DNA of 64,000 bases from Noviherbaspirillum sp. L7-7A (GTDB lineage Bacteria; Pseudomonadota; Gammaproteobacteria; Burkholderiales; Burkholderiaceae_D), in NCBI RefSeq assembly GCF_019052805.1, contig NZ_JAHQRJ010000001.1, forward strand, positions 1,302,001-1,366,000, read 5' to 3'. Below, piece by piece: positions 17,020 through 28,928 of this stretch. Each line of letters begins with the position of its first letter. Position 1 is the stretch's first letter. The notes beneath the pieces were generated by a model. That model was not told the origin of the DNA and did not search any database. It worked only from the letters and a program-made list of their open reading frames with translations. The translations under genes were made by a program, and so were the position numbers.

Positions 17020-17489
17020 CTACAGGAAACGGTCCAGTATCTTCCGGCTCTGCCGATCCAAACCATGCAGGTCGCGCAGCAGGAAATGAATGCCGTGACT
17101 GTCCGAAATCAGCAGGGTATCGGCGCTGATGCGGCGGATGTCTTCCTCGCCGCGCAGCACGAAGCTGGTGTCGCCGCGATCAGTGCTGACCTGCCAGGTC
17201 GACGGCGTTGCATAGCTGGATACCGAGCGGATCGCCCGGATCTCGGGCATGAATTCCCGTCCCTGCAATTCCTCCTCCAGGAGCGCCCGCGTCGCGGCCG
17301 GCAGCGCGCCGAGCGACGGTATCCACGCCACTTCCTTGCCATCCCGGTCATCAGCGAGATGCCTTCGTCCGGCGCCTGGATCGGAAAGGCGCGCACCGGC
17401 GCCACGCCCACATGCTGCTGGCCCTCGGCGGTCGTCAGCACCAGCTTGCCGAAGCTGTCGCGGGAAAGCTGCAGTTGATCGCTGTCCAT
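17020..17489 (-). pseudogene. DUF1854 protein of cyanophycin cluster, disrupted by one frameshift
   Basis: The start MDSDQLQLSRDSFGKL (17489, with AAGGAG upstream) runs in one frame to GISLMT. The rest of the family (DGKEVAWIPSLGALPAATRA ... DSHGIHFLLRDLHGLDRQ) continues in another frame to the stop at 17020. Restoring a single base near 17349-17350 would give ISLIDRDGKEVAW and an intact ~156-residue protein. DUF1854 genes accompany cyanophycin synthetases and the ABC transporter next door; the biochemical role is not known to me. The ABC gene stop is 2 bases upstream of this start, so they form one unit. Either a true loss or a base-calling error; the rest of the reading frame is uneroded. 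Confidence 0.8.
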
Positions 17490-17491
17490 GC

Positions 17492-19765
17492 TCACTCCTT
17501 TTCCCGCGTGTCGTCGATGTCGCGGTCCACATTGCGCGCCTGCGCCTGGTACAGCCGGTAATAGGCGCCTTGCCTGGCCATCAGCTCGTCATGCGGCCCT
17601 TGCTCCACTACCTGGCCGCGGTCCATCACCACCAGCCGGTCGGCCCGCTGCAGCGTCGACAGCCGGTGCGCGATGGCGATCGTGGTGCGGCCTTTCACCA
17701 GGTTGTCCAGCGCCTTCTGGATTTCCTTTTCGGTCTCGGAGTCGACCGAGGACGTCGCTTCATCCAGGATCAGGATGCGCGGGTCGATCAGCAGCGCCCG
17801 CGCAATCGAAATGCGCTGCCGCTCGCCGCCGGACAGGCCCTGGCCGCGTTCGCCCACCATCGAGTCGTAGCCATGCGGCAGGCGCAGGATGAACTCGTGG
17901 GCATGGGCCGCGCGCGCCGCCGCCATGATCTCGGCGCGGGTCGCATCCGGCTTGCCGTAGGCGATGTTCTCGGCAATCGTGCCGAAGAACAGGAAAGGTT
18001 CCTGCAGCACCAGGCCGATGTTGCTGCGGTAGTCGGCAACGGCAAAGGAGCGGATGTCCACGCCGTCGAGCCGTATCGAGCCTTCCGCCACGTCGTAGAA
18101 GCGGCAGATCAGGTTCACCAGCGTGCTCTTGCCCGAGCCGCTGTGGCCGACCAGGCCGATCATCTCGCCCGGCGCGATGGTCAGGTTCACACCGCGGTTG
18201 ACCGCCCGGTTGCCGTAACGGAAACCGACGTCGCGCACTTCGATCCGGCCTTCCACCCGCTCCAGGCGGGCCGGCTGTGCCGGGTCCGGTACGCTGGAGA
18301 CATGGTCCAGGATGTCGAAGATGCGCTTGGCGGCCGACGCCGATTTCTGGGTCACGGACACGATGCGGCTCATCGAGTCCAGCCGCGAATAGAAGCGGCT
18401 GATATAGGCCAGGAAGGCGGTCAGCGTGCCCACCGTGATGTCGCCGCGCGAGACCTGCCAGATGCCGAAGGCCCATACCACCAGCAGGCCCAGCTCGGTC
18501 ATCAGCGACACCGTCGGCGAGAACAGCGACCAGATCCGGTTGATCCGGTCATTCACGGCGAGATTGTGCTTGTTGGCCAGGCGGAAGCGCGCCGCTTCCC
18601 GCTTTTCCTGGGCAAATGCCTTCACCACGCGGATGCCCGGTATCGTGTCGGCCAGTACATTGGTGACCTCGCCCCAGACCCGGTCGATTTTCTCGAAGCC
18701 GGTGCGCAGCCGGTCTCGCACCACATGGATCAGCCAGGCAATGATGGGCAGCGGCACCAGCGTCACCAGCGCCAGCCACGGGTTGATCGAGAACAGGATG
18801 GCCGATGTCATCAGGATCATCAGCACGTCGGTGGCGAAATCGAGCAGGTGCAGCGACAGGAACACGCAGATCCGGTCGCTCTCGCTGCCGATGCGCGCCA
18901 TCAGGTCGCCGGTACGCTTGCCGCCGAAATATTCCAGCGACAGCCGCAGCAGGTGTTCATAGGTCGTGGTGCGCAGGTCCGCGCCGATGCGCTCCGACAC
19001 CAGCGCCAGGATATAGGTCTTGGCCCAGGTCAGGCCCCAGGCCATCAGCGCCGCGCCCAAGAGGCCCAGCAGGTACATGCCGACCACCGCCGGGTCGATG
19101 CGCTGGCCGTTCTGGTAGGGGATCAGCACATTGTCCATCAGCGGCATGGTCAGGTAAGGCGGCACCAGGCTGGCCGCCGTGCCCAGGAGCGTCAGCAGGA
19201 AACCGGCCAGCAGCTGGCCGCGATACGGCCGGGCAAAGCGCCACAGCCGGAACAGGGTCCAGGTGGAAGGCGGCGTGTGGATGACCTTGGTGCAGACCGG
19301 GCAGACATCCTGGTCCGGCTCCAGCGGCGCCTTGCAGCTCGGGCAGACGGTCTGCTCGTCCGACTCGACTTCCAGCCCGTCGAGATGGCTTTGAAGGCGC
19401 AGCTGGAACTGATCGATGATCCGCATTGCCAAAAGGTTCATGCCCAGCGTGAAATGCCACGCCGCCAGCCGGCCGGCCGGCGTCACCAGTTCCAGATGGC
19501 CAACGCCGGCATGGTCATGATGCTCCAGCGTCATCCCGGGTTCGAATGCCCAGTCGCGCCATTCCGGTTCGCCCGGCGCGCGGGCAAGAATGCGGCGATC
19601 GGTCAGAACGACAATGCCGTCGGCGAAATGGTGCTGGGCGTCGAGGTCAACCGTAACCCAGGTAACAACGTTCTCCCCGGCGGCGAGACGTTTTTCTACA
19701 ACATCCCGCCACGGCTCCGGCAAGTCGCTAGCGGATCGGTCGGGGAGTGGCAATACGGTGGTCAT
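17492..19765 (-). CDS. ABC exporter (fused permease-ATPase) of the cyanophycin cluster
   Basis: 757 residues. Residues 1-130 form a small domain found ahead of the transporter (PH-like, judged by pattern GIVVLTDRRILARA). A zinc ribbon follows with CPSC at 141-144 and CPVC at 155-158. Then comes a type-I exporter membrane domain (about 170-470, six helices) and an ATPase with Walker A (GHSGSGKST, 540-548), signature LSGGE (644-648) and Walker B (ILILDEA, 664-670). It is a half-transporter and should homodimerise. It is divergent from the cphA pair and coupled to the DUF1854 gene. Homologues are annotated as cyanophycin-associated, but the cargo is unknown. The extra N-terminal domain and ribbon are unusual for an MsbA-like exporter. 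Confidence 0.88.
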   Translation of the reverse strand: MTTVLPLPDRSASDLPEPWRDVVEKRLAAGENVVTWVTVDLDAQHHFADGIVVLTDRRILARAPGEPEWRDWAFEPGMTLEHHDHAGVGHLELVTPAGRLAAWHFTLGMNLLAMRIIDQFQLRLQSHLDGLEVESDEQTVCPSCKAPLEPDQDVCPVCTKVIHTPPSTWTLFRLWRFARPYRGQLLAGFLLTLLGTAASLVPPYLTMPLMDNVLIPYQNGQRIDPAVVGMYLLGLLGAALMAWGLTWAKTYILALVSERIGADLRTTTYEHLLRLSLEYFGGKRTGDLMARIGSESDRICVFLSLHLLDFATDVLMILMTSAILFSINPWLALVTLVPLPIIAWLIHVVRDRLRTGFEKIDRVWGEVTNVLADTIPGIRVVKAFAQEKREAARFRLANKHNLAVNDRINRIWSLFSPTVSLMTELGLLVVWAFGIWQVSRGDITVGTLTAFLAYISRFYSRLDSMSRIVSVTQKSASAAKRIFDILDHVSSVPDPAQPARLERVEGRIEVRDVGFRYGNRAVNRGVNLTIAPGEMIGLVGHSGSGKSTLVNLICRFYDVAEGSIRLDGVDIRSFAVADYRSNIGLVLQEPFLFFGTIAENIAYGKPDATRAEIMAAARAAHAHEFILRLPHGYDSMVGERGQGLSGGERQRISIARALLIDPRILILDEATSSVDSETEKEIQKALDNLVKGRTTIAIAHRLSTLQRADRLVVMDRGQVVEQGPHDELMARQGAYYRLYQAQARNVDRDIDDTREKE

Positions 19766-20030: not shown

Positions 20031-22202
20031 ATGATGAAAAAGAAAGAATTGGTATTTCGCCGCGTGACCCATCTGCGCGGCCCGAACATCTGGACCTACC
20101 GGCCCGTGATCGAAGCCTGGGTCGATATCGGCGAGCTGGAGCAGTTTCCCTCCAACAAGATCCCCGGATTGTACGAGCGCCTGACCGGCTGGCTGCCTAC
20201 CCTGGTCGAGCACCGCTGCGGCGTCGGCGAGCGCGGCGGCTTCCTGGAACGGCTGCGCGAAGGCACCTGGGCGGCCCATATCCTGGAGCACGTGGTGCTG
20301 GAGCTGCAAAGCCTGGCCGGCATGCCGACCGGCTTCGGCAAGGCCCGCGAGACCTCGGAATCGGGCGTCTACAAGGTGGCCTTCCGCACCCGCCAGGAAG
20401 AAGTCGGCCGCGCCGCACTGGAAGCGGCGCGCGGGCTCCTGATGGCCGCCATCGAAGACCGTCCCTATGACGTCGCCGCCGCCATCGGCGGCCTGCGCGA
20501 AATGGTGGACAGCATCTGCCTCGGGCCCAGCACCGCGCATATCGTCGATGCCGCCACCGAGCGCCGCATCCCGTCGATCCGGCTTAACGACGGCAACCTC
20601 GTGCAGCTTGGCTATGGCGCGCGCCAGCGCCGCATCTGGACCGCCGAAACCGACCGCACCAGCGCCATCGCCGAGGGCATTTCCCGCGACAAGGACCTGA
20701 CCAAGTCGCTGCTGCAGAGCTGCGGCGTGCCGGTACCGCAGGGCCGCCTGGTGGACGACCCGGCTGACGCCTGGGACGCCGCCGAGGACATCGGCCTGCC
20801 GGTGGCGGTCAAGCCCTACGACGGCAACCATGGCCGCGGCGTGTCGCTCGACCTGACCACCCGCGAGCAGGTGGAAGCCGCCTTCGAACTTGCCAGCCGC
20901 GAAGGCAGCGGCGTCATTGTCGAACAGTCGATTTCCGGCGTCGAGCACCGGCTGCTGGTGGTGGGCAAGCGGGTCGTCGCCGCCGCCGCCGGCGAAACCA
21001 CTGCCGTGGTGGGCGACGGCAAGTCCACCATCGCCGAGCTGATCGAGTCGCAGGTCAACACCGACCCGCGCCGCGGCGAGGACGAGGAATTCCCGCTGGA
21101 GCCGCTGAAGCTGGAAGAGGGCGACGAACTGTCGCTGCAGCTGGCCCGTCAGGGCCGCTCGCGCGCCACCGTGCCGGCCGCCGGCGAAAAGGTGGAACTG
21201 CAGCGCAACGGCAACGTGGCCTTCGACGTCACCGACCGGGTTCATCCGGACACGGCTGCGCTGGCCAGCCTGGCCGCCCGCGTGGTCGGCCTTGACATCG
21301 CCGGCATCGACCTGGTGGTTGAAGACATCTCCAGGCCGCTGTCGGAACAGCGCGGCGCCATCATTGAAGTCAATGCCGGGCCGGGCCTTCTGGCCCATAC
21401 CAAGCCCGCCACCGGCCAGCCGCAGCCGGTTGGCGCGGCCATCGTCGACCACCTGTTCGCCGCCAACGACGATGCCCGCATCCCGGTGGTGGGCATCACC
21501 GGCAGCCGCGACACCAGCCGCATCGCGCGCCTGATCGGCAAGATCCTGTGCGCCAGCCACCGCCACGTCGGCGTGGCCTGCGCCGACGGGCTGTTCCTCA
21601 ATAATCGCCAGATCCGCAAGGACAATTGCGCCAGCTGGGAAGCCGGGCAAAGCCTGCTGATCAACCGTTCGGTGCAGGCGGCGGTGATGGAAAACGGCAA
21701 TCGCGTGATCCTTGGCGAAGGCCTGGCCTATGACCGCTGCAGCGTCGGCGTCGTGACCGACGTATCGGGGCTGGAGCAGCTGGCCGACTTCGACATCCTC
21801 AACCGCGACCAGCTCTATAACGTGGCCCGTACCCAGGTCGACGTGGTGCTGCCGGACGGCGTGGCTGTCCTCAATGCCGCCGACCACCAGGCGGTGGAGA
21901 TGGCCGAACTGTGCGATGGCGACGTGATCTTCTATGCGCCTTCGGCGTCGCTGCAAGTGATTGCCGCGCACCGTGACGATGGCGGCCGCGCCGTATTCGC
22001 CCGCGATGGCGATGTGGTGCTGGCCAGTGGCAAGAATGAGCATGCGGTGTTGACGGGCGCCTTGTCGCTGGGCGGCGCCGACCTGCCGCCGGACAGCGTG
22101 CTTGCCGCGGTCGCCAGCGCCTGGGCGCTGCAGATTCCGGCCGAGCTGATCTGCGCCGGCCTGCGCACTTTCGGCGCCGAGGCGCAACGGATCAAGCATT
22201 AA
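20031..22202 (+). CDS. Cyanophycin synthetase paralogue with degenerate Mur-ligase domain (CphA2/CphA'-like)
   Basis: 723 residues. It has the CphA N-terminal domain (to about 160), an ATP-grasp domain (about 215-475, with KPYDGNHGRGVS and a metal-binding EVNAGPG) and a Mur-ligase-like region. At the P-loop the expected GTNGKTT reads GSRDTSR (491-497), so the second ATPase site should be dead. The C-terminal Mur-ligase lobe is also missing, making it ~130 residues shorter than the neighbour. This is the pattern of CphA2-type enzymes, which in cyanobacteria use beta-Asp-Arg dipeptides, and of betaproteobacterial CphA' proteins. Two start ATGs (20031, 20034) lack a clear ribosome site. The next cphA starts 43 bases on. 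Confidence 0.88.
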   Translation: MMKKKELVFRRVTHLRGPNIWTYRPVIEAWVDIGELEQFPSNKIPGLYERLTGWLPTLVEHRCGVGERGGFLERLREGTWAAHILEHVVLELQSLAGMPTGFGKARETSESGVYKVAFRTRQEEVGRAALEAARGLLMAAIEDRPYDVAAAIGGLREMVDSICLGPSTAHIVDAATERRIPSIRLNDGNLVQLGYGARQRRIWTAETDRTSAIAEGISRDKDLTKSLLQSCGVPVPQGRLVDDPADAWDAAEDIGLPVAVKPYDGNHGRGVSLDLTTREQVEAAFELASREGSGVIVEQSISGVEHRLLVVGKRVVAAAAGETTAVVGDGKSTIAELIESQVNTDPRRGEDEEFPLEPLKLEEGDELSLQLARQGRSRATVPAAGEKVELQRNGNVAFDVTDRVHPDTAALASLAARVVGLDIAGIDLVVEDISRPLSEQRGAIIEVNAGPGLLAHTKPATGQPQPVGAAIVDHLFAANDDARIPVVGITGSRDTSRIARLIGKILCASHRHVGVACADGLFLNNRQIRKDNCASWEAGQSLLINRSVQAAVMENGNRVILGEGLAYDRCSVGVVTDVSGLEQLADFDILNRDQLYNVARTQVDVVLPDGVAVLNAADHQAVEMAELCDGDVIFYAPSASLQVIAAHRDDGGRAVFARDGDVVLASGKNEHAVLTGALSLGGADLPPDSVLAAVASAWALQIPAELICAGLRTFGAEAQRIKH

Positions 22203-22245
22203 AGCCGGCATGGCCGGACAGTCAATACGGGACAGGATCAAATTT

Positions 22246-24819
22246 ATGGAAGTATCAAGAATCCGGGCGCTTCGCGGCCCCAACCTCTGGAGCCAGCACA
22301 CCTCTATCGAGGCAGTCATCGAGTGCGCACCGCAGGAATGCGACATCGCCCGCATGCAGGGTTTCGAAGACCGGCTGCGCGCCCGGTTTCCCTGCCTGCC
22401 CATGCTGCAGCCCAGCGGCCATCATGACGCCGTCTCGCTGGCGCATGTGCTGGAACTGACCGCGCTGAGCCTGCAGGCCAATGCCGGCTGCCCGGTCACC
22501 TTCAGCCGCACCACGCCGACGCTGGAAACCGGCATCTTCCAGGTGGTGGTGGAATATAGCGAGGAGGAAGTTGGCCGCCTGGCGTTCGACCTCGCCATCG
22601 AACTGTGCCAGGCGGCGAACGACGACCTGCCGTTCGACATCGACGGCGCGCTCGCCCGCCTGCGCGAACTCGACGAGGACATCCGTCTCGGACCCAGCAC
22701 CGGCTCCATCGTCGATGCCGCCGTCGCCCGCAACATTCCCTACCGCCGCCTCACCAGCGGCAGCATGGTGATGTTTGGCTGGGGCAGCCGGCAGCGCCGC
22801 ATCCAGGCAGCCGAAATGGACCGCACCAGCGCCATCGCCGAGTCGATCGCCCAGGACAAGGAACTGACCAAGAAGCTGCTGGCGGCGGCCGGCGTGCCGG
22901 TGCCGCGCGGCGGCATCGCCACCACGCCCGAGGCGGCCTGGGCGCTGGCCCAGCAGGTTGGCCTGCCGGTCGTTACCAAGCCCAAGGACGGCAACCAGGG
23001 CAAGGGCGTCACCGTCAATATCGACAGCCAGGAAAGCCTGCTGCGCGCCTTCGCCAGCGCCAGCGAATACGGCGATGAAGTCATCGTCGAGCGCTATCTC
23101 GCCGGCGACGATTTCCGCCTGCTGGTGGTGGGCAACAAGCTCGTCGCCGCAGCCCGGCGCGACCCGCCGCAGGTGGTTGGCGACGGCGAGCATACCGTGC
23201 GCCAGCTGGTCGACCTGATCAACAGCGACCCGCGGCGCGGCACCGGCCATGCCACCTCGCTGACCCGCATCCGTTTCGACGACATCGCGCTGGCGCGCCT
23301 GGCCGCACAGGGCTACCAGGCCGACTCGGTGCCGGCCCGCGGCCAGCGCGTGATGCTGCGCAATAATGCCAACCTGTCCACCGGTGGCACCGCCACCGAC
23401 GTGACCGACGATGTGCATCCATCGGTTGCCGCCTGTGCCGTGGAAGCGGCGCGCATGGTGGGTCTGGATATCTGCGGCGTCGACATGGTCTGCGACAGCG
23501 TCCTGAAGCCGATCGAGGAGCAGGGCGGCGGCATCGTCGAGGTCAATGCCGCGCCCGGACTGCGCATGCATCTGACGCCGTCCTATGGCAAGGGCCGCGC
23601 AGTCGGGGAAAGCATCATCGAGGACATGTTCCCTGCCGGTGAGGATGGCCGCATCCCGGTGGTGGCCGTGACCGGCACCAACGGCAAGACCACCACGGTG
23701 CGCCTGATCACCCACCTCCTCAGCAGTGGCGGCCTGCGTACCGGCATGACCAATACCGACGGCGTCTATATCGAAGGCCGCCGGATCGACAGCGGCGACT
23801 GCAGCGGCCCCAAGAGCGCCCGGAACGTGCTGATGCACCCGGACGTGGACGCCGCCGTGTTCGAGACCGCTCGCGGTGGCGTGTTGCGCGAAGGCCTTGG
23901 GTATGACCGCTGCCAGGTGGCGGTCGTGACCAATATCGGCAGCGGCGATCATCTGGGCCTGAATTACATCACCACTGTCGAGGATCTCGCGGTCCTGAAG
24001 CGGGTGATCGTGCAGAACGTGGCGCAGAACGGCATGGCGGTGCTCAACGCCGCCGATCCCATCGTCGCATCGATGTCGGAAAACTGCCCCGGCCAGGTGA
24101 CGTATTTTGCCGCCGACCGGCATCACCCGGTCATGACCATGCATCGGGCGCAGGGCCTGCGGGTGGTGTTCGTCGATGGCCGGGACCTGGTGGCTGCCGA
24201 AGGCATAGGCGAAATGCGCATCCCGCTGGCCGAAGTGCCGATCACGCTGGGCGGCACGCTGGCTTTCCAGGTCGAGAATGTGATGGCCTCGGTGGCCGCC
24301 GCCTGGGCCGTTGGCATTTCTTGGGAAAAGATACGCGCCGGCCTGCGTTCCTTTTCCAACGACAGCGACAATGCACCCGGACGCTTCAACATGTTCCGCT
24401 ACCGCGGCGCCACCGTGATCGCCGATTACGGCCACAACCCGGATGCGATGCTCGCGCTGGTGAAGGCAGTGGAAACCCTGCCGGCACGCCGCCGCTCGGT
24501 GGTGATCAGCGGGGCAGGGGACAGGCGTGACGAGGATATCCGCCAGCAGACCCGCATCCTGGGTGACGTGTTCGACGATGTGCTGCTGTACCAGGACCAA
24601 TGCCAGCGTGGCCGGCAGGATGGCGAGGTGATTGCCTTGCTGCGGGAAGGGCTGGAAGGCAGCCGCCGCACCAGCGCCGTCAGGGAAATCCGCGGCGAAT
24701 TCGTCGCCATCGATACCGCTCTGGGCAGTTTGGGGGACGGTGATCTCTGCCTGATTCTGGTGGACCAGGTCGATGAAGCGCTGGCACATATCGCCGCACG
24801 AGTGGCGGAGGCAGCGTAA
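22246..24819 (+). CDS. cphA: Cyanophycin synthetase CphA
   Basis: 857 residues, the normal CphA size. Domains in order: N-terminal domain (1-160), ATP-grasp (about 200-465) with KPKDGNQGKGVT and EVNAAPGLRMH, and a complete Mur-ligase with P-loop GTNGKTTT (477-484), conserved ETARGGVLREGL and a C-terminal lobe with ADYGHNPDAM. It alternately adds Asp (ATP-grasp site) and Arg (Mur-ligase site) to build cyanophycin granules in the cytoplasm. The start at 22246 has an ACAGGA site 9 bases upstream. It is second in a two-gene operon closed by the hairpin at 24851-24888. No cyanophycinase lies in the window. Confidence 0.93.
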   Translation: MEVSRIRALRGPNLWSQHTSIEAVIECAPQECDIARMQGFEDRLRARFPCLPMLQPSGHHDAVSLAHVLELTALSLQANAGCPVTFSRTTPTLETGIFQVVVEYSEEEVGRLAFDLAIELCQAANDDLPFDIDGALARLRELDEDIRLGPSTGSIVDAAVARNIPYRRLTSGSMVMFGWGSRQRRIQAAEMDRTSAIAESIAQDKELTKKLLAAAGVPVPRGGIATTPEAAWALAQQVGLPVVTKPKDGNQGKGVTVNIDSQESLLRAFASASEYGDEVIVERYLAGDDFRLLVVGNKLVAAARRDPPQVVGDGEHTVRQLVDLINSDPRRGTGHATSLTRIRFDDIALARLAAQGYQADSVPARGQRVMLRNNANLSTGGTATDVTDDVHPSVAACAVEAARMVGLDICGVDMVCDSVLKPIEEQGGGIVEVNAAPGLRMHLTPSYGKGRAVGESIIEDMFPAGEDGRIPVVAVTGTNGKTTTVRLITHLLSSGGLRTGMTNTDGVYIEGRRIDSGDCSGPKSARNVLMHPDVDAAVFETARGGVLREGLGYDRCQVAVVTNIGSGDHLGLNYITTVEDLAVLKRVIVQNVAQNGMAVLNAADPIVASMSENCPGQVTYFAADRHHPVMTMHRAQGLRVVFVDGRDLVAAEGIGEMRIPLAEVPITLGGTLAFQVENVMASVAAAWAVGISWEKIRAGLRSFSNDSDNAPGRFNMFRYRGATVIADYGHNPDAMLALVKAVETLPARRRSVVISGAGDRRDEDIRQQTRILGDVFDDVLLYQDQCQRGRQDGEVIALLREGLEGSRRTSAVREIRGEFVAIDTALGSLGDGDLCLILVDQVDEALAHIAARVAEAA

Positions 24820-25276: not shown

Positions 25277-26302
25277 ATGAAAAGCTCGCTATTCGACACT
25301 GGTCATTTCTGGGCTTCCGACCCCATGACCCCGTTCAAGGCATTCATTGCATCTCCCGAGTTTGTGGAACTCGGAAGGCGGGTGCCTGCCTATCGCGATC
25401 CCGACAAGAAAGCGCAGCCGCTCCGTCCCGCGACCATCCAGGTCTACACCCTGATGTTCGGCAAATTCCACCGTTGGATGCGCGAGCACGGCAAGACGCT
25501 CTATACCGTCAATGACAACGACATCCTGCAATTTCTCGACAGCCGCCAGGCTGACGAAACCGGCGTCGCGGAGCAGCTTAAAAGTACGATACGGGTGAAG
25601 TATGTACGTATGCTGGAACGGGTCTTCCAGCATCTGGAAGTCTCGCCCAATCCCGCCCAGAGCACCGCATTCCAGATCTACAAGACCAAGGGAGCGAGTG
25701 GCAAGGACCTGGAAATGGTGGTGATGGACGATACGCAGCAGCAGGCCTTCATGCGCGCACTGCCAGTGGCCAATGCAACGCCCGCCGGCTGGAAACGCAG
25801 GCGCGACCGCGCAATGCAGGCACTGATGCTGGGCGCCGGGCTGACTGTTGCTGAAGCCATGCATGCAAAGATGCGGGATATCGGTTCCCTGGACAGCACG
25901 GGCTCATTGCCCGTTACCGTCAGGCCTGAGTCCGCCCACAGCACGACGCGAGAGCACAAGACGCTGCTGCGTCCCTTTGCTTTGGCCGAGGTCATGCAGT
26001 GGGTGGAGGAACGGAAAAAGCTGGATATACCGGGCCAGTTGCTGTTTCCCGCCTCGCTCTCCACCGGCAAGCCGCTGGACAAGGCCACCGTGTACCGCCA
26101 GGTCAAGAAAACCTTTGAGCGCGCCGGCCTGGAAATGCCGCGGCAAGGCGGCCGCACGCTGCGCAACACGTTTGCTGTGCGTGAGCTTGAAAAGGAATCG
26201 GTGGAGCTGGTGGGACAGTTACTGGGCCTGGAGCGCCAGCGGTCCACGGAGGCTTATCTGAACGCGGGGCGGCGCAAGGCCAGGTCACAGCGGCTGAGTT
26301 GA
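25277..26302 (+). CDS. Tyrosine recombinase/integrase family protein with degenerate active site
   Basis: 341 residues: an N-terminal SAM-like core-binding domain (about 45-130) and a C-terminal catalytic-fold domain (about 155-335). Family landmarks align, but key residues differ. Box I, normally GLRxSE, reads GAGLTVAEAM and lacks the first Arg. Box II, normally HxLRH, reads GRTLRNTFAVREL and lacks both His. The LGH motif is LGLERQ. The nucleophile region STEAYL keeps the Tyr, and one Arg (LRN) remains. It may bind DNA without recombining, or belong to a divergent subfamily. Start at 25277 chosen by an AGGA site; M17 (25325) is an alternative. No att repeats were identified. Confidence 0.75.
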   Translation: MKSSLFDTGHFWASDPMTPFKAFIASPEFVELGRRVPAYRDPDKKAQPLRPATIQVYTLMFGKFHRWMREHGKTLYTVNDNDILQFLDSRQADETGVAEQLKSTIRVKYVRMLERVFQHLEVSPNPAQSTAFQIYKTKGASGKDLEMVVMDDTQQQAFMRALPVANATPAGWKRRRDRAMQALMLGAGLTVAEAMHAKMRDIGSLDSTGSLPVTVRPESAHSTTREHKTLLRPFALAEVMQWVEERKKLDIPGQLLFPASLSTGKPLDKATVYRQVKKTFERAGLEMPRQGGRTLRNTFAVRELEKESVELVGQLLGLERQRSTEAYLNAGRRKARSQRLS

Positions 26303-26470
26303 ATCGGATTATGACAGCAGCATTGCGAGGAATCAGGAGGAGGGCGCACGCTGATGGGCGGGCGCCCAGGCAATCAGGCCAGACGTGTTGAGCGCCGCCA
26401 TCGCAATGTCTTGCTTATTGCCTTTTTGAATGCGCCAGCATGGATGAAATTACGTCTCCGGGCAAGGTGA

Positions 26471-27076
26471 CTAGACCTTCTTGTACCAGACCGTGAACGA
26501 ATCATTTATATCTGCGAGCCGTGGCTCATTCAATTCCCTGGCCAAATCCTTATACGGAAATTCCGCCACGAGTTCGGGAGCGAATGGCGTGATTGTGCCG
26601 GCTGCATACTGGTTGGTGGTTTCGCTGAACAGGCCAGTCAGGTCATTGTCCCGCGCAATTTCGATCTGCCTGGCTCGCATGGCTTTCCCGATTCCCTGGC
26701 CTCTGAACGAAGGAATGACGGCGATTCCGGCGCTGCGCATGGTCTCTTCGGATACTTCGCCGCGGTCGCTGAGAAAGCGCATTTCAGCTGCGACGACCCG
26801 TGCGTGAATCTTGCCCACCGCCTGCATCGACGCGTTACATCCGCGCTCGCCGAGACGTTCGACGTGTTGCCAGTACTCGGCCGCCGTCTGTGCGGCACAT
26901 TGACCTATGACCCTGTCACCTAGTGTTGCCACGAGTGACATGGCTGGATCGGGTGGTGGAAAGGCAACGGTAAAGTCAATGCCGGGAAGTTTAACGCTGA
27001 GGGTTTCATCGCTCCATGCTTCTCGCATGAACAAGATGTCCGGCACGCCCACTCTCATGCTGATTTTGTTATCCAT
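26471..27076 (-). CDS. GNAT-family N-acetyltransferase
   Basis: 201 residues. The acetyl-CoA pyrophosphate loop is visible as RGQGIGKAMR following the beta-4 strand IAVIPSF (about residues 118-136), the hallmark of GNAT enzymes; the downstream segment ARDNDLTGLFSETTN matches the beta-5/alpha-4 part. The N-terminal 60 residues are less typical. The acceptor substrate cannot be predicted. It stands alone on the minus strand between the recombinase gene and an insertion sequence, in the accessory part of the window. Confidence 0.75.
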   Translation of the reverse strand: MDNKISMRVGVPDILFMREAWSDETLSVKLPGIDFTVAFPPPDPAMSLVATLGDRVIGQCAAQTAAEYWQHVERLGERGCNASMQAVGKIHARVVAAEMRFLSDRGEVSEETMRSAGIAVIPSFRGQGIGKAMRARQIEIARDNDLTGLFSETTNQYAAGTITPFAPELVAEFPYKDLARELNEPRLADINDSFTVWYKKV

Positions 27077-27283
27077 CTCGCTTTTCTCCGTTTGGGTGCA
27101 AATAATATTGAGCTAGTCGCTGCCCGATCACAGAGTTGTGGATGGCCGCAACGACGGGCGCCTAAGTGGGAGAAGCAAGACAAAGGTTCCGACAAGGCGT
27201 GGGGGTGCAGGGCTCAAGAAGACCCCTTCGAACCCATAAACGAAACCTTATTTTACATAATGCAAATTATGGGTAGTTTGGCC

Positions 27284-28928
27284 TGTCACGGCAAAGTTGT
27301 AATGTCCGCTTCTAGCAAAGTTGAAATGTCCGTTTTTCCCTGAAGCAGCGCATTCTTGCGGCTCACAGGGAGATCGCGATGAACAACGCTGGGAGTATCA
27401 CGATGACGATGCGCGCGCTGGATCAGCTCAAAGTAATTCAGCAAGTCGTTGATGGTGGCCTAAAGCCTGGACAGGCCGCCAGCCGACTTCAGTTGAGTGT
27501 GCGCCAAGTCCGGCGATTGGTACGACGCTACGAAGCGCAAGGCGCTATGGGTTTAGTGTCGCGACGCTACAATCGGCCCAGCAATAATCAAATCGACGCA
27601 GAACTCGCGCAAGTTGCCCTGATGATTGTCCGGGAACGCTATGCTGATTTCGGGCCGACCCTCGCATGCGAGAAGCTGCGTGAGCTACACGGCATTGATC
27701 TGTCGAAGGAAACCGTCCGCAAGCTCATGTCCGCCGTCGGTCTGTGGGTTCCACGCAGCCAGCGGCCGGCACGGATTTACCAGCCGCGCAACCGCCGGCA
27801 TTGTTTTGGCGAGCTAGTCCAGATTGATGGCAGCGACCACCACTGGTTTGAAGATCGGGGACCGGCGTGTACTTTGCTGGTCTACGTGGACGATGCCACC
27901 AGCCAGCTCTTGCAGCTGCATTTCACCCGGTCGGAATCAACCTTCAGCTATTTCGAGGCGACGCGTGCCTATATCGAACAGCACGGCAAGCCGCAGGCCT
28001 TCTACAGCGACAAGTACAGCGTCTTCCGCGTCAACCAGAATAACGCCGCTGGCGGCAATGGCCATACCCAGTTTGGCCGAGCGCTGTTTGAGCTCAATAT
28101 TGAGGGCATTTGCGCCAATTCGAGCCAGGCCAAGGGCCGTGTAGAACGCGCCAACCTGACCCTCCAGGACCGCCTGGTGAAGGAACTGCGGCTGCAAGGC
28201 ATTGCCGACATGGCCGCCGCCAATGCTTATGTGCCGACCTTCATTGCCGACTATAACCGACGCTTTGCCAAGCCCGCCCGCAACGATTTCGATGCGCATC
28301 GTGCGATTCGGCCCGATGAAATGCTGGATCTAATCTTCACGGTCCGGGAGCCGCGCCGGGTCTCGCACAGCTTGACGGTGCAATATGCCAAGGTGCTTTA
28401 TTTGTTGACTGACACGCCTGCCAGTCGGCGCCTCATTGGCAAGTACATCGATATCTATGAGTATCCCGACGGGCGCATTGAGCCGCGAGCCGATGGGACC
28501 GCCCTCCCCTATACTGCTTACAACCGTCTTTCTGAAATCACCAATGGTGCCATTGTCGAGAACAAGCGGCTTGGACATGTCCTCGAGATTGCCCAGTTAG
28601 TCCAGGACCAACGAGATAATCGACCCAGCCGGGTGGCACCGTCGCGCAGCCATCGTGGCATCGGGCCGATTTCCAAGAAGCTTATGCCCGGCAAAAAGTC
28701 GCAACGATCGCTTACTGCGGCAGATATTGCGCTTGCGATTGAACAGCGTGCAAAGCGCAAAACGAACGGCTCGCTTACAGAGGCTTAAGAATGATTTTAG
28801 GGGCTTAACACAGCGATTCTTCCGCTCTCGCGGCTGCGTGCTTTTAACAGCTTGAGAAGCAAAATCCAACTGCAAAAGCGGACATTTCAACTTTGCCGGC
28901 AAGCGGACATCTGAACTTTGCTTTGACA
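27284..28928 (+). mobile_element. Complete ISNCY/IS1202-like insertion sequence, 1645 bp
   Basis: The element runs from TGTCA to its inverted TGACA. Each end carries two tandem copies of an 18-base motif close to GCAAAGTTGAAATGTCCG: left copies at 27291-27308 and 27315-27332, right copies (inverted) at 28879-28896 and 28904-28921. These are presumably transposase binding sites. Outside the ends, TTGGCC occurs at 27278-27283 and again at 28929-28934, a fitting 6-bp target duplication. One intact transposase gene fills the interior, so the copy looks recent and potentially active. Confidence 0.85.
27379..28788 (+). CDS. ISNCY-type DDE transposase
   Basis: 469 residues. An N-terminal helix-turn-helix (LKPGQAASRLQLSVRQVRRLV, about 28-48) precedes an integrase-core domain with the acidic triad in QIDGSDHHW (about 150), FYSDKYSVF (about 212) and QAKGRVERANLTLQD (about 255). 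A Lys/Arg-rich C-terminus follows. The start ATG at 27379 has an AGGGAG site 7 bases upstream. The size and the GSDHHWFED pattern match the IS1202/ISNCY transposases rather than IS3 or IS481. The gene is intact. Confidence 0.88.
   Translation: MNNAGSITMTMRALDQLKVIQQVVDGGLKPGQAASRLQLSVRQVRRLVRRYEAQGAMGLVSRRYNRPSNNQIDAELAQVALMIVRERYADFGPTLACEKLRELHGIDLSKETVRKLMSAVGLWVPRSQRPARIYQPRNRRHCFGELVQIDGSDHHWFEDRGPACTLLVYVDDATSQLLQLHFTRSESTFSYFEATRAYIEQHGKPQAFYSDKYSVFRVNQNNAAGGNGHTQFGRALFELNIEGICANSSQAKGRVERANLTLQDRLVKELRLQGIADMAAANAYVPTFIADYNRRFAKPARNDFDAHRAIRPDEMLDLIFTVREPRRVSHSLTVQYAKVLYLLTDTPASRRLIGKYIDIYEYPDGRIEPRADGTALPYTAYNRLSEITNGAIVENKRLGHVLEIAQLVQDQRDNRPSRVAPSRSHRGIGPISKKLMPGKKSQRSLTAADIALAIEQRAKRKTNGSLTEA

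Follow-up and report, generated by a model that had tools for sequence, protein, structure and literature searches.

Reciprocal loss of catalytic sites in neighbouring cphA genes of Burkholderiales, a probable split cyanophycin synthetase

Two neighbouring genes for proteins like cyanophycin synthetase (CphA1) lie head to tail, 43 nt apart (stop at 22202, start at 22246), in a 64,000-nt stretch of Noviherbaspirillum sp. L7-7A (NZ_JAHQRJ010000001.1, 1,302,001-1,366,000), which is referred to here as the window and whose coordinates are used throughout. The upstream protein is called CphA', a label that we take to be the one used in the literature on tandem cphA genes, and the downstream protein is called CphA. 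Across the order Burkholderiales, the catalytic sites of CphA1 were found to be lost reciprocally in such pairs: CphA' keeps the residues of the cutting site in the N domain and has lost the Asp pocket of the G domain and, in most cases, the Mur ligase site of the M domain, whereas CphA keeps the latter two and has lost the first. The two proteins are probably the halves of a split synthetase of cyanophycin or a cyanophycin-like polymer, in which CphA' would do the cutting for a polymerase unable to make its own primers.

In CphA1, primers are made by the N domain, which acts as a slow endo-cyanophycinase resembling metallopeptidases and has the motif C-x19-HxxEH; this motif is fully present in 83% of nr70 CphA1s (PMC9262961; the papers cited by PMC number are drawn on in part). 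The Synechocystis enzyme SuCphA1 (PDB 7lg5/7txu), here also abbreviated Su, shares with CphA' the N-G-M order of domains and the cutting motif. A single chain of CphA1, however, can contain all three sites, which here are distributed over two genes, and CphA' is without the Asp pocket, the M site and the Mur lid (Mlid).

Division of the catalytic sites between CphA' and CphA

The features of the two genes in the window are the following.

20031..22202, + strand: CphA' gene, 723 aa; cutting-site residues intact in the N domain, no Asp pocket in the ATP-grasp G domain
Within 20031..22202, + strand: Mur part of CphA'; core dead, C-lobe absent
20217..20291, + strand: N-domain endo-cyanophycinase motif C63-x19-H83-I-L-E86-H87, intact (Su C59, H79, E82, H83; motif as in PMC9262961)
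20820..20840, + strand: G-domain phosphate loop DGNHGRG, kept, with Su H267 present
20991..20993, + strand: Gly321 in place of Su Arg323; ligand of the Asp beta-carboxylate lost (role as in PMC9427784)
21216..21221, + strand: point of deletion of the Su S396-T397-G398 loop of the Asp site
21390..21392, + strand: Leu454 in place of Su Arg458; ligand of the Asp alpha-carboxylate lost
21501..21521, + strand: Mur P-loop destroyed, reading GSRDTSR where the partner has GTNGKTT
21828..21842, + strand: R600...D604 of the Mur core (Su S603, E607), near-invariant in CphA'; polymer contacts in Su (PMC9262961)
22246..24819, + strand: partner CphA, 857 aa from a homology-supported start (the open reading frame, ORF, opens at 22210); G and M sites complete except for H267Q, N site lost
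22393..22458, + strand: degenerate N site of CphA, C62-x16-HVLEL; alignment columns of H57 and C59 empty

The CphA' ORF was found at 20031-22202, where a sequence-only reading of the window had placed it, and Pfam matches to the cyanophycin-synthetase N domain and to ATP-grasp were obtained for both CphA' and CphA. The loss of the Mur P-loop and of the C-lobe, claimed in that reading, was also borne out: GSRDTSR stands at 21501-21521, and neither Mur_ligase_M nor Mur_ligase_C matched CphA' at E 0.001, while the downstream protein matched both. With phmmer, residues 13-720 of CphA' were aligned to residues 7-727 of SuCphA1 with 450 bits. In TeCphA1, the Mlid starts at residue 724 (PMC9427784), close to the point where this match ends. 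The equivalog cut-off of NCBIfam TIGR02068 (850) was passed by the partner (982.8 bits) and not by CphA' (704.6 bits), and the subfamily cut-off of NF010623 (877) was passed by both (1028.7 bits for CphA' and 1247.8 for the partner). Among named genomes, the CphA' of highest identity was that of Noviherbaspirillum soli (98%), in a related-locus scan that yielded 2 loci only.

The ATP-grasp motifs of CphA' had been described as kept, which holds for one part of the G domain and fails for another. The positions of K220, K261, H267, R309, D431 and E450, whose roles in binding ATP, Mg and the chain end are described in PMC9427784, are retained in the window protein, and the residues for ATP, Mg and the polymer carboxylate were kept in 154/154 evaluable CphA' of the survey below. 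In the Asp pocket, N394 is kept (as N395), but R323 is replaced by G321, the S396 loop is deleted and R458 is replaced by L454; the set of R323, S396 and R458 was lost in every CphA' scored (155/155). In the M site, Glu and Gln occupy positions 585/586 beside the altered P-loop and the lid is absent, and the residues by which a CphA1 M site was scored are present in the partner and not in CphA'. The complete N site of the window CphA' (C63, H83, E86, H87) had gone unremarked. The downstream partner had been called intact, a description that does not apply to its N domain: in the alignment to Su, no CphA residue falls in the columns for H57 or C59 and Leu takes the place of H83, and H57 and C59 of the metal site were absent from 157/157 paired CphA. 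The window CphA has the residues scored for Asp binding in the G domain and for the M site, and not those of the N site.

In total, 160 loci were read, half of them (80) from the family of the window genome (out of at least 106 genomes bearing CphA') and the other 80 from elsewhere in the order (out of at least 106 matching genomes), and the window was added to the scores; matches below 350 bits were not used. Outside the family, CphA' was present at 74 loci, a solitary CphA1 at 5 and a CphA at a contig end at 1 (L220). The CphA of L226, spread over two frames, was excluded from the CphA counts, and the CphA' of L199, at a contig end, was not evaluable for the N site.

The N site, scored by its ligand and general-base residues (C59, H79, E82, H83 in SuCphA1 numbering), was present in 154/154 evaluable CphA' and in 0/155 paired CphA. 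Conversely, the Asp pocket (R323, S396, R458) was found in 0/155 CphA' versus 155/155 paired CphA, and the M site (K499, T/S500, D585, H586) in 12/155 versus 155/155. When the set, including gammaproteobacterial paired proteins, was thinned to 80% G-domain identity, the N site remained in 78/78 CphA' and 0/56 CphA, the Asp pocket in 0/78 and 56/56, and the M site in 7/78 and 56/56, respectively. CphA' was upstream and on the same strand in all of the 154 pairs, with a median gap of 53 nt. In the family of the window genome, both genes were present, among the matches listed, in at least 105 of the 145 genomes, with one genome having CphA' alone and one CphA alone, both of them incomplete assemblies. 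Since so many genomes of the family carry both genes and only 12 of the 155 CphA' keep the M set, a sequencing error is unlikely; an error or a pseudogene as the source of the P-loop and M-site loss, which is common to many genomes of the order, was therefore rejected.

The N site is the sole catalytic site retained by every evaluable CphA'. A second CphA' (L265, from a second pair in genome G140) has lost the ATP loop of the G domain, the omega module and the M site and keeps every scored N-site residue, and the gammaproteobacterial CphA' of L244 combines H267L and E450A with an intact N site. All three sites were present in 18/18 classical unpaired CphA1 rows, a hand-chosen set made up of 5 solitary proteins of the order, plasmid proteins of Deinococcus, Rhizobium, Ruegeria and Sphingobium, 8 of 9 unpaired gammaproteobacterial proteins and Su; the proteins of Tatumella (TmCphA1), Chryseobacterium (L253) and L241, and the extra copies of the g18 genomes described below, were left out of it. 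The division of labour suggested earlier for the pair is strongly supported by these counts, with its axis lying between one cutting site and two building sites and not between one and two ATPases. From the reciprocal loss of sites, it follows that CphA' and CphA probably have to work together.

Sequence constraint and origin of the pair

The medians over 153 pair loci differed between the domains of the two proteins. For the N, G and M domains in turn, identity was 0.66, 0.67 and 0.48 in CphA' and 0.64, 0.73 and 0.70 in CphA, and the ratio of nonsynonymous to synonymous substitution rates (dN/dS) was 0.28, 0.34 and 0.55 in CphA' and 0.27, 0.27 and 0.28 in CphA, comparisons that are non-independent and in which dS is high. 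The N domain was better conserved than the M domain in 2990/3003 comparisons among thinned CphA', in 49/1540 among thinned CphA and in 30/153 among the chosen classical proteins, so that the N domain of CphA' is, by sequence, under tighter constraint than its M domain. The N-site residues were near-invariant in CphA', and near-invariant positions (>=99%) of its Mur core numbered 9/236, including 603 and 607; S603 and E607 are the two Mur-core residues of SuCphA1 in contact with polymer bound at the N site (PMC9262961).

A quick tree of the G domain (73 rows, no bootstrap) placed the window CphA' together with the other CphA' in one clade (26 rows) with a support of 100 in the Shimodaira-Hasegawa-like approximate likelihood ratio test (SH-aLRT), and separated its sister clade of paired CphA (98) and the classical proteins (99). 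At Su position 214, Glu was found in 152/156 CphA' and 157/157 paired CphA, and Val in 12/18 classical rows. Judged from these sequences, a single tandem duplication of a three-site CphA1 would account for both paired clades.

An M site was found in the full-length CphA' of L148, L149, L151, L152, L154, L158, L168 and L171 and, by the four-residue test, also in those of L114, L179 and L197 and in the fragment of L199. Because the CphA' that bear an M site are already without the Asp pocket, and their partners already without the N site, the exchange of N and G functions probably preceded the loss of M. The latter appears to have recurred at least 16 times, as counted on a quick tree allowing losses only (11/154 intact).

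A split synthetase and its precedents

The reading that we favour starts from a three-site CphA1 that would have been duplicated once in tandem to give CphA' and CphA. The downstream CphA would be the polymerase, its G domain adding Asp and its M domain adding Arg, with no primer-making site, whereas the upstream CphA' would no longer synthesise and would keep, in its N domain, an endo-cyanophycinase site of the zinc type. Provided that this site binds metal and cleaves, CphA' would cleave growing chains into short fragments that serve CphA as primers, either in trans or within a mixed CphA'-CphA oligomer, a putative but plausible complex whose product would presumably be cyanophycin. The ATP and chain-end site that CphA' keeps without an Asp pocket may hold the chain end, complete a G dimer, in which residue 215 of one protomer reaches the site of its neighbour (PMC9427784), or serve another acceptor.

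The TmCphA1 of Tatumella, presumably the entry 7lgn, resembles the downstream CphA in having G and M sites and no N site. Unlike what is proposed for the pair, it requires added primer, and the portion of PMC9262961 used here mentions no partner that would provide it with an N site. In trans, TmCphA1 becomes independent of primer when it is supplied with a SuCphA1 whose G and M sites are dead, or with just the solubilised N domain of SuCphA1, and N-G+M+/N+G-M- heterodimers are active, somewhat less so without primer (PMC9262961). By analogy, these laboratory experiments are a close precedent, and the CphA'-CphA pair resembles a natural version of the N-G+M+/N+G-M- combination. A split of this kind predicts that neither gene works properly alone, and it may yield a two-part enzyme in which the number and the length of chains are tuned separately. 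It would also be one testable account of the scarcity of cyanophycinase, detailed below, and of the cyanophycin-negative genes of R. eutropha.

Tandem cphA copies are already known. Neighbouring copies in non-cyanobacteria have been credited to Fuser and Steinbuchel 2007 (PMC10687191), neighbouring genes 'CphA1, CphA2' are given for Sideroxydans (PMC5178258), and in Accumulibacter the expression of both neighbouring copies was summed (PMC10687191, PMC5178258). By description, the only basis of this comparison, these copies are neighbours as they are here, and a split of sites is not described in the portions of those papers used. In the open-access literature searched, no statement was found that one of two neighbouring cphA genes holds the N cutting site and the other the ligase sites, and the words 'tandem' and 'proteobacteria' are absent from PMC9262961; the reciprocal split is the part that we did not find in that literature and regard as new. 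In one survey, betaproteobacteria accounted for 903 of 1614 complete genomes bearing cphA1 (PMC10206079).

Several observations weigh against the split synthetase. The N site is lost without any CphA' in TmCphA1, in Chryseobacterium, in the divergent gammaproteobacterial protein of L241 and in the extra copies that lie by cyanophycinase in the g18 genomes, which contradicts the rule that every unpaired CphA keeps it. In the N domains of paired CphA, H79 remains in 120/157 and E82 in 128/157. A pure cutter would have no need of the G-domain residues for ATP and polymer, which all 154 evaluable CphA' retain, and the full-length CphA' that carry an M site could in principle owe it to gene conversion instead of to an ancestral state.

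The partner carries H267Q in 155/157 cases (DGNQGKG in the window), and replacement of His267 by Ala reduces or abolishes activity in the cyanobacterial enzymes tested (PMC9262961, PMC9427784). Because Gln is also found at 267 in the unpaired Chryseobacterium CphA1 and in other CphA copies, the change is probably tolerated in paired CphA. The same occurrences ruled out H267Q as a marker of the pair.

The homologues of R. eutropha H16 were originally studied, reportedly, in Adames 2013. According to a review, their overexpression at home or in E. coli gave no cyanophycin (PMC8560796), and a second review likewise reports none in wild-type R. eutropha (PMC11362209). If the H16 genes were present together and correspond to this pair, that outcome is evidence against either a simple primer model or a cyanophycin product. 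It is also compatible with a product that is short, exported or of another kind.

Gene neighbourhood and alternative roles of the pair

Two further genes of the window lie on the other side of CphA', an ABC gene divergent from the pair and a DUF1854 gene behind it.

17492..19765, - strand: divergent ABC exporter-type protein, NCBIfam NF052233 'cyanophycin metabolism-associated ABC transporter'
17020..17532, - strand: DUF1854 protein, NF052234 'cyanophycin metabolism-associated', frame interrupted in the window

The break in the DUF1854 frame is a one-base difference from the nearest relative (L116), and other genomes do contain full-length matches; the gene may truly be lost here, or the break may come from a sequencing error.

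DUF1854 was found in 102 of 300 genomes of the order, all 102 with CphA. Among the matches listed, it was present in 102/106 CphA genomes that are not classical-only versus 0/9 classical-only ones; 82 of the 106 were read as pairs and the rest were taken from match lists or a contig end (G159 from one weak match), and 5 of the 9 were read (L221, L222, L224, L225, L227), the other 4 being assigned from genus and matches. An ABC gene matching that of the window at E 1e-20 and divergent from the pair was detected at 79/80 loci of the family and 61/80 other loci, and at this threshold it was absent from all five classical loci among the latter 80. Cyanophycinase (TIGR02069) exceeded its cut-off, among the matches listed, in 7/102 DUF1854/pair genomes, 9/9 classical-only genomes and 5/185 genomes without CphA, and the best match in the window genome scored 50.7 bits, under the cut-off of 126.6. 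Fisher tests gave small p values, for events that are not independent because the classical-only genomes come from two families.

Three of the seven cyanophycinase-positive DUF1854 genomes have extra CphA copies by the cyanophycinase gene. In the g18 genomes L257, L258 and L266, two further CphA copies each, with the N site lost or degenerate and with H267Q, are clustered with cyanophycinase, and these genomes also carry the CphA'-CphA pair.

The scarcity of cyanophycinase in the DUF1854/pair genomes and its presence in every classical-only genome, together with the low score in the window genome, would also fit a CphA' whose main role is that of the cyanophycin degrader missing from betaproteobacteria, depolymerising endolytically and leaving the rest to isoaspartyl peptidases. 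We consider this possible, though doubtful as the main role; it is compatible with priming, and the odds of the two overlap. In the same direction, cyanophycinase was reported in 2.8% of the 903 betaproteobacterial cphA1 genomes, with unknown isozymes suggested (PMC10206079). However, the N site of SuCphA1 is slow and gives mainly 4-mers and not dipeptides (PMC9262961), whereas mobilisation of a store would need higher activity, and the association with the classical-only genomes is phylogenetically non-independent.

It is rather unlikely that the pair makes a different or short product in place of cyanophycin granules, to be handled by the linked ABC exporter and DUF1854 protein. The distribution of DUF1854 and of the divergent ABC gene, the rarity of cyanophycinase and the negative result with the H16 genes point that way, but the catalytic residues for the addition of both Asp and Arg are present in CphA, and recombinant R. 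eutropha with the Synechocystis enzyme accumulates cyanophycin (PMC11362209). A special form of this idea, to which we give somewhat less credence still, takes DUF1854, the ABC exporter, CphA' and CphA as a module for secreted cyanophycin oligopeptides instead of a granule store: CphA would build chains of Asp and Arg, CphA' would cut them to a few beta-Asp-Arg units and the exporter would secrete these. If true, the mostly missing cyanophycinase and the lack of cyanophycin from the H16 genes would both be explained.

CphA' scored 450 bits against CphA1 structures and 215 and 190 bits against the shorter chains 8fxh and 7ta5, which we take to be CphA2. The sequence-only reading had likened CphA' to CphA2; a CphA' whose G domain polymerises beta-Asp-Arg dipeptides in that way now looks very improbable. 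Part of the likeness stands, in that CphA2, the cyanobacterial dipeptide polymerase, has one active site and an unused Mur part (PMC10206079) and CphA' likewise has no active Mur part and keeps the G-domain residues for ATP and polymer. In contrast, CphA2 is without the N-site motif (PMC9262961), which is present in all evaluable CphA'; R458, a neighbour of the acceptor alpha-carboxylate in TeCphA1 (PMC9427784), was lost in 156/156 CphA', and the CphA' of L265 has no G-domain ATP loop. CphA2 being known here by description and bit scores, membership of CphA' in it was rejected because of the N motif and the pattern of scores. None of the 23 matched plasmid records was cyanobacterial.

The loss of the M catalytic set in 143/155 and of the Asp pocket in 155/155 might suggest that CphA' is a pseudoenzyme in decay or with a structural role only, which is scarcely credible in view of its near-invariant N-site residues, the lower dN/dS of its N domain than of its M domain (medians given above) and its almost complete association with the partner.

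Another partition of the CphA1 domains is seen in N-M proteins that adjoin isoaspartyl peptidase genes (L004 and L248) and that, unlike CphA', keep M and have no G domain. The first, a third CphA-like protein of the window genome (L004:907-2742, 611 aa, about 10 kb past the end of the window), has an N-terminal stretch like that of CphA in which the N site is lost, a complete Mur ligase (GTNGKTTTT, C-lobe) and no ATP-grasp, which makes it a mirror image of CphA', and it directly follows an ORF that reads like an isoaspartyl aminopeptidase. The second (L248:3977-5845, on a plasmid of Legionella adelaidensis) has intact N-site residues and an intact Mur ligase site, and its gene is lined up with those for cyanophycinase and isoaspartyl peptidase. 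A protein annotated as CapA family on a plasmid of Microvirga ossetica (L247:2515-5529) has a CphA-like ATP-grasp with the phosphate loop KKGKG and a partial Mur core in which the P-loop lysine is absent. In the window, the pair is followed at 25277-28788 by integrase-like and transposase-like ORFs, as at the edge of a mobile island, according to inspection of their translations by eye.

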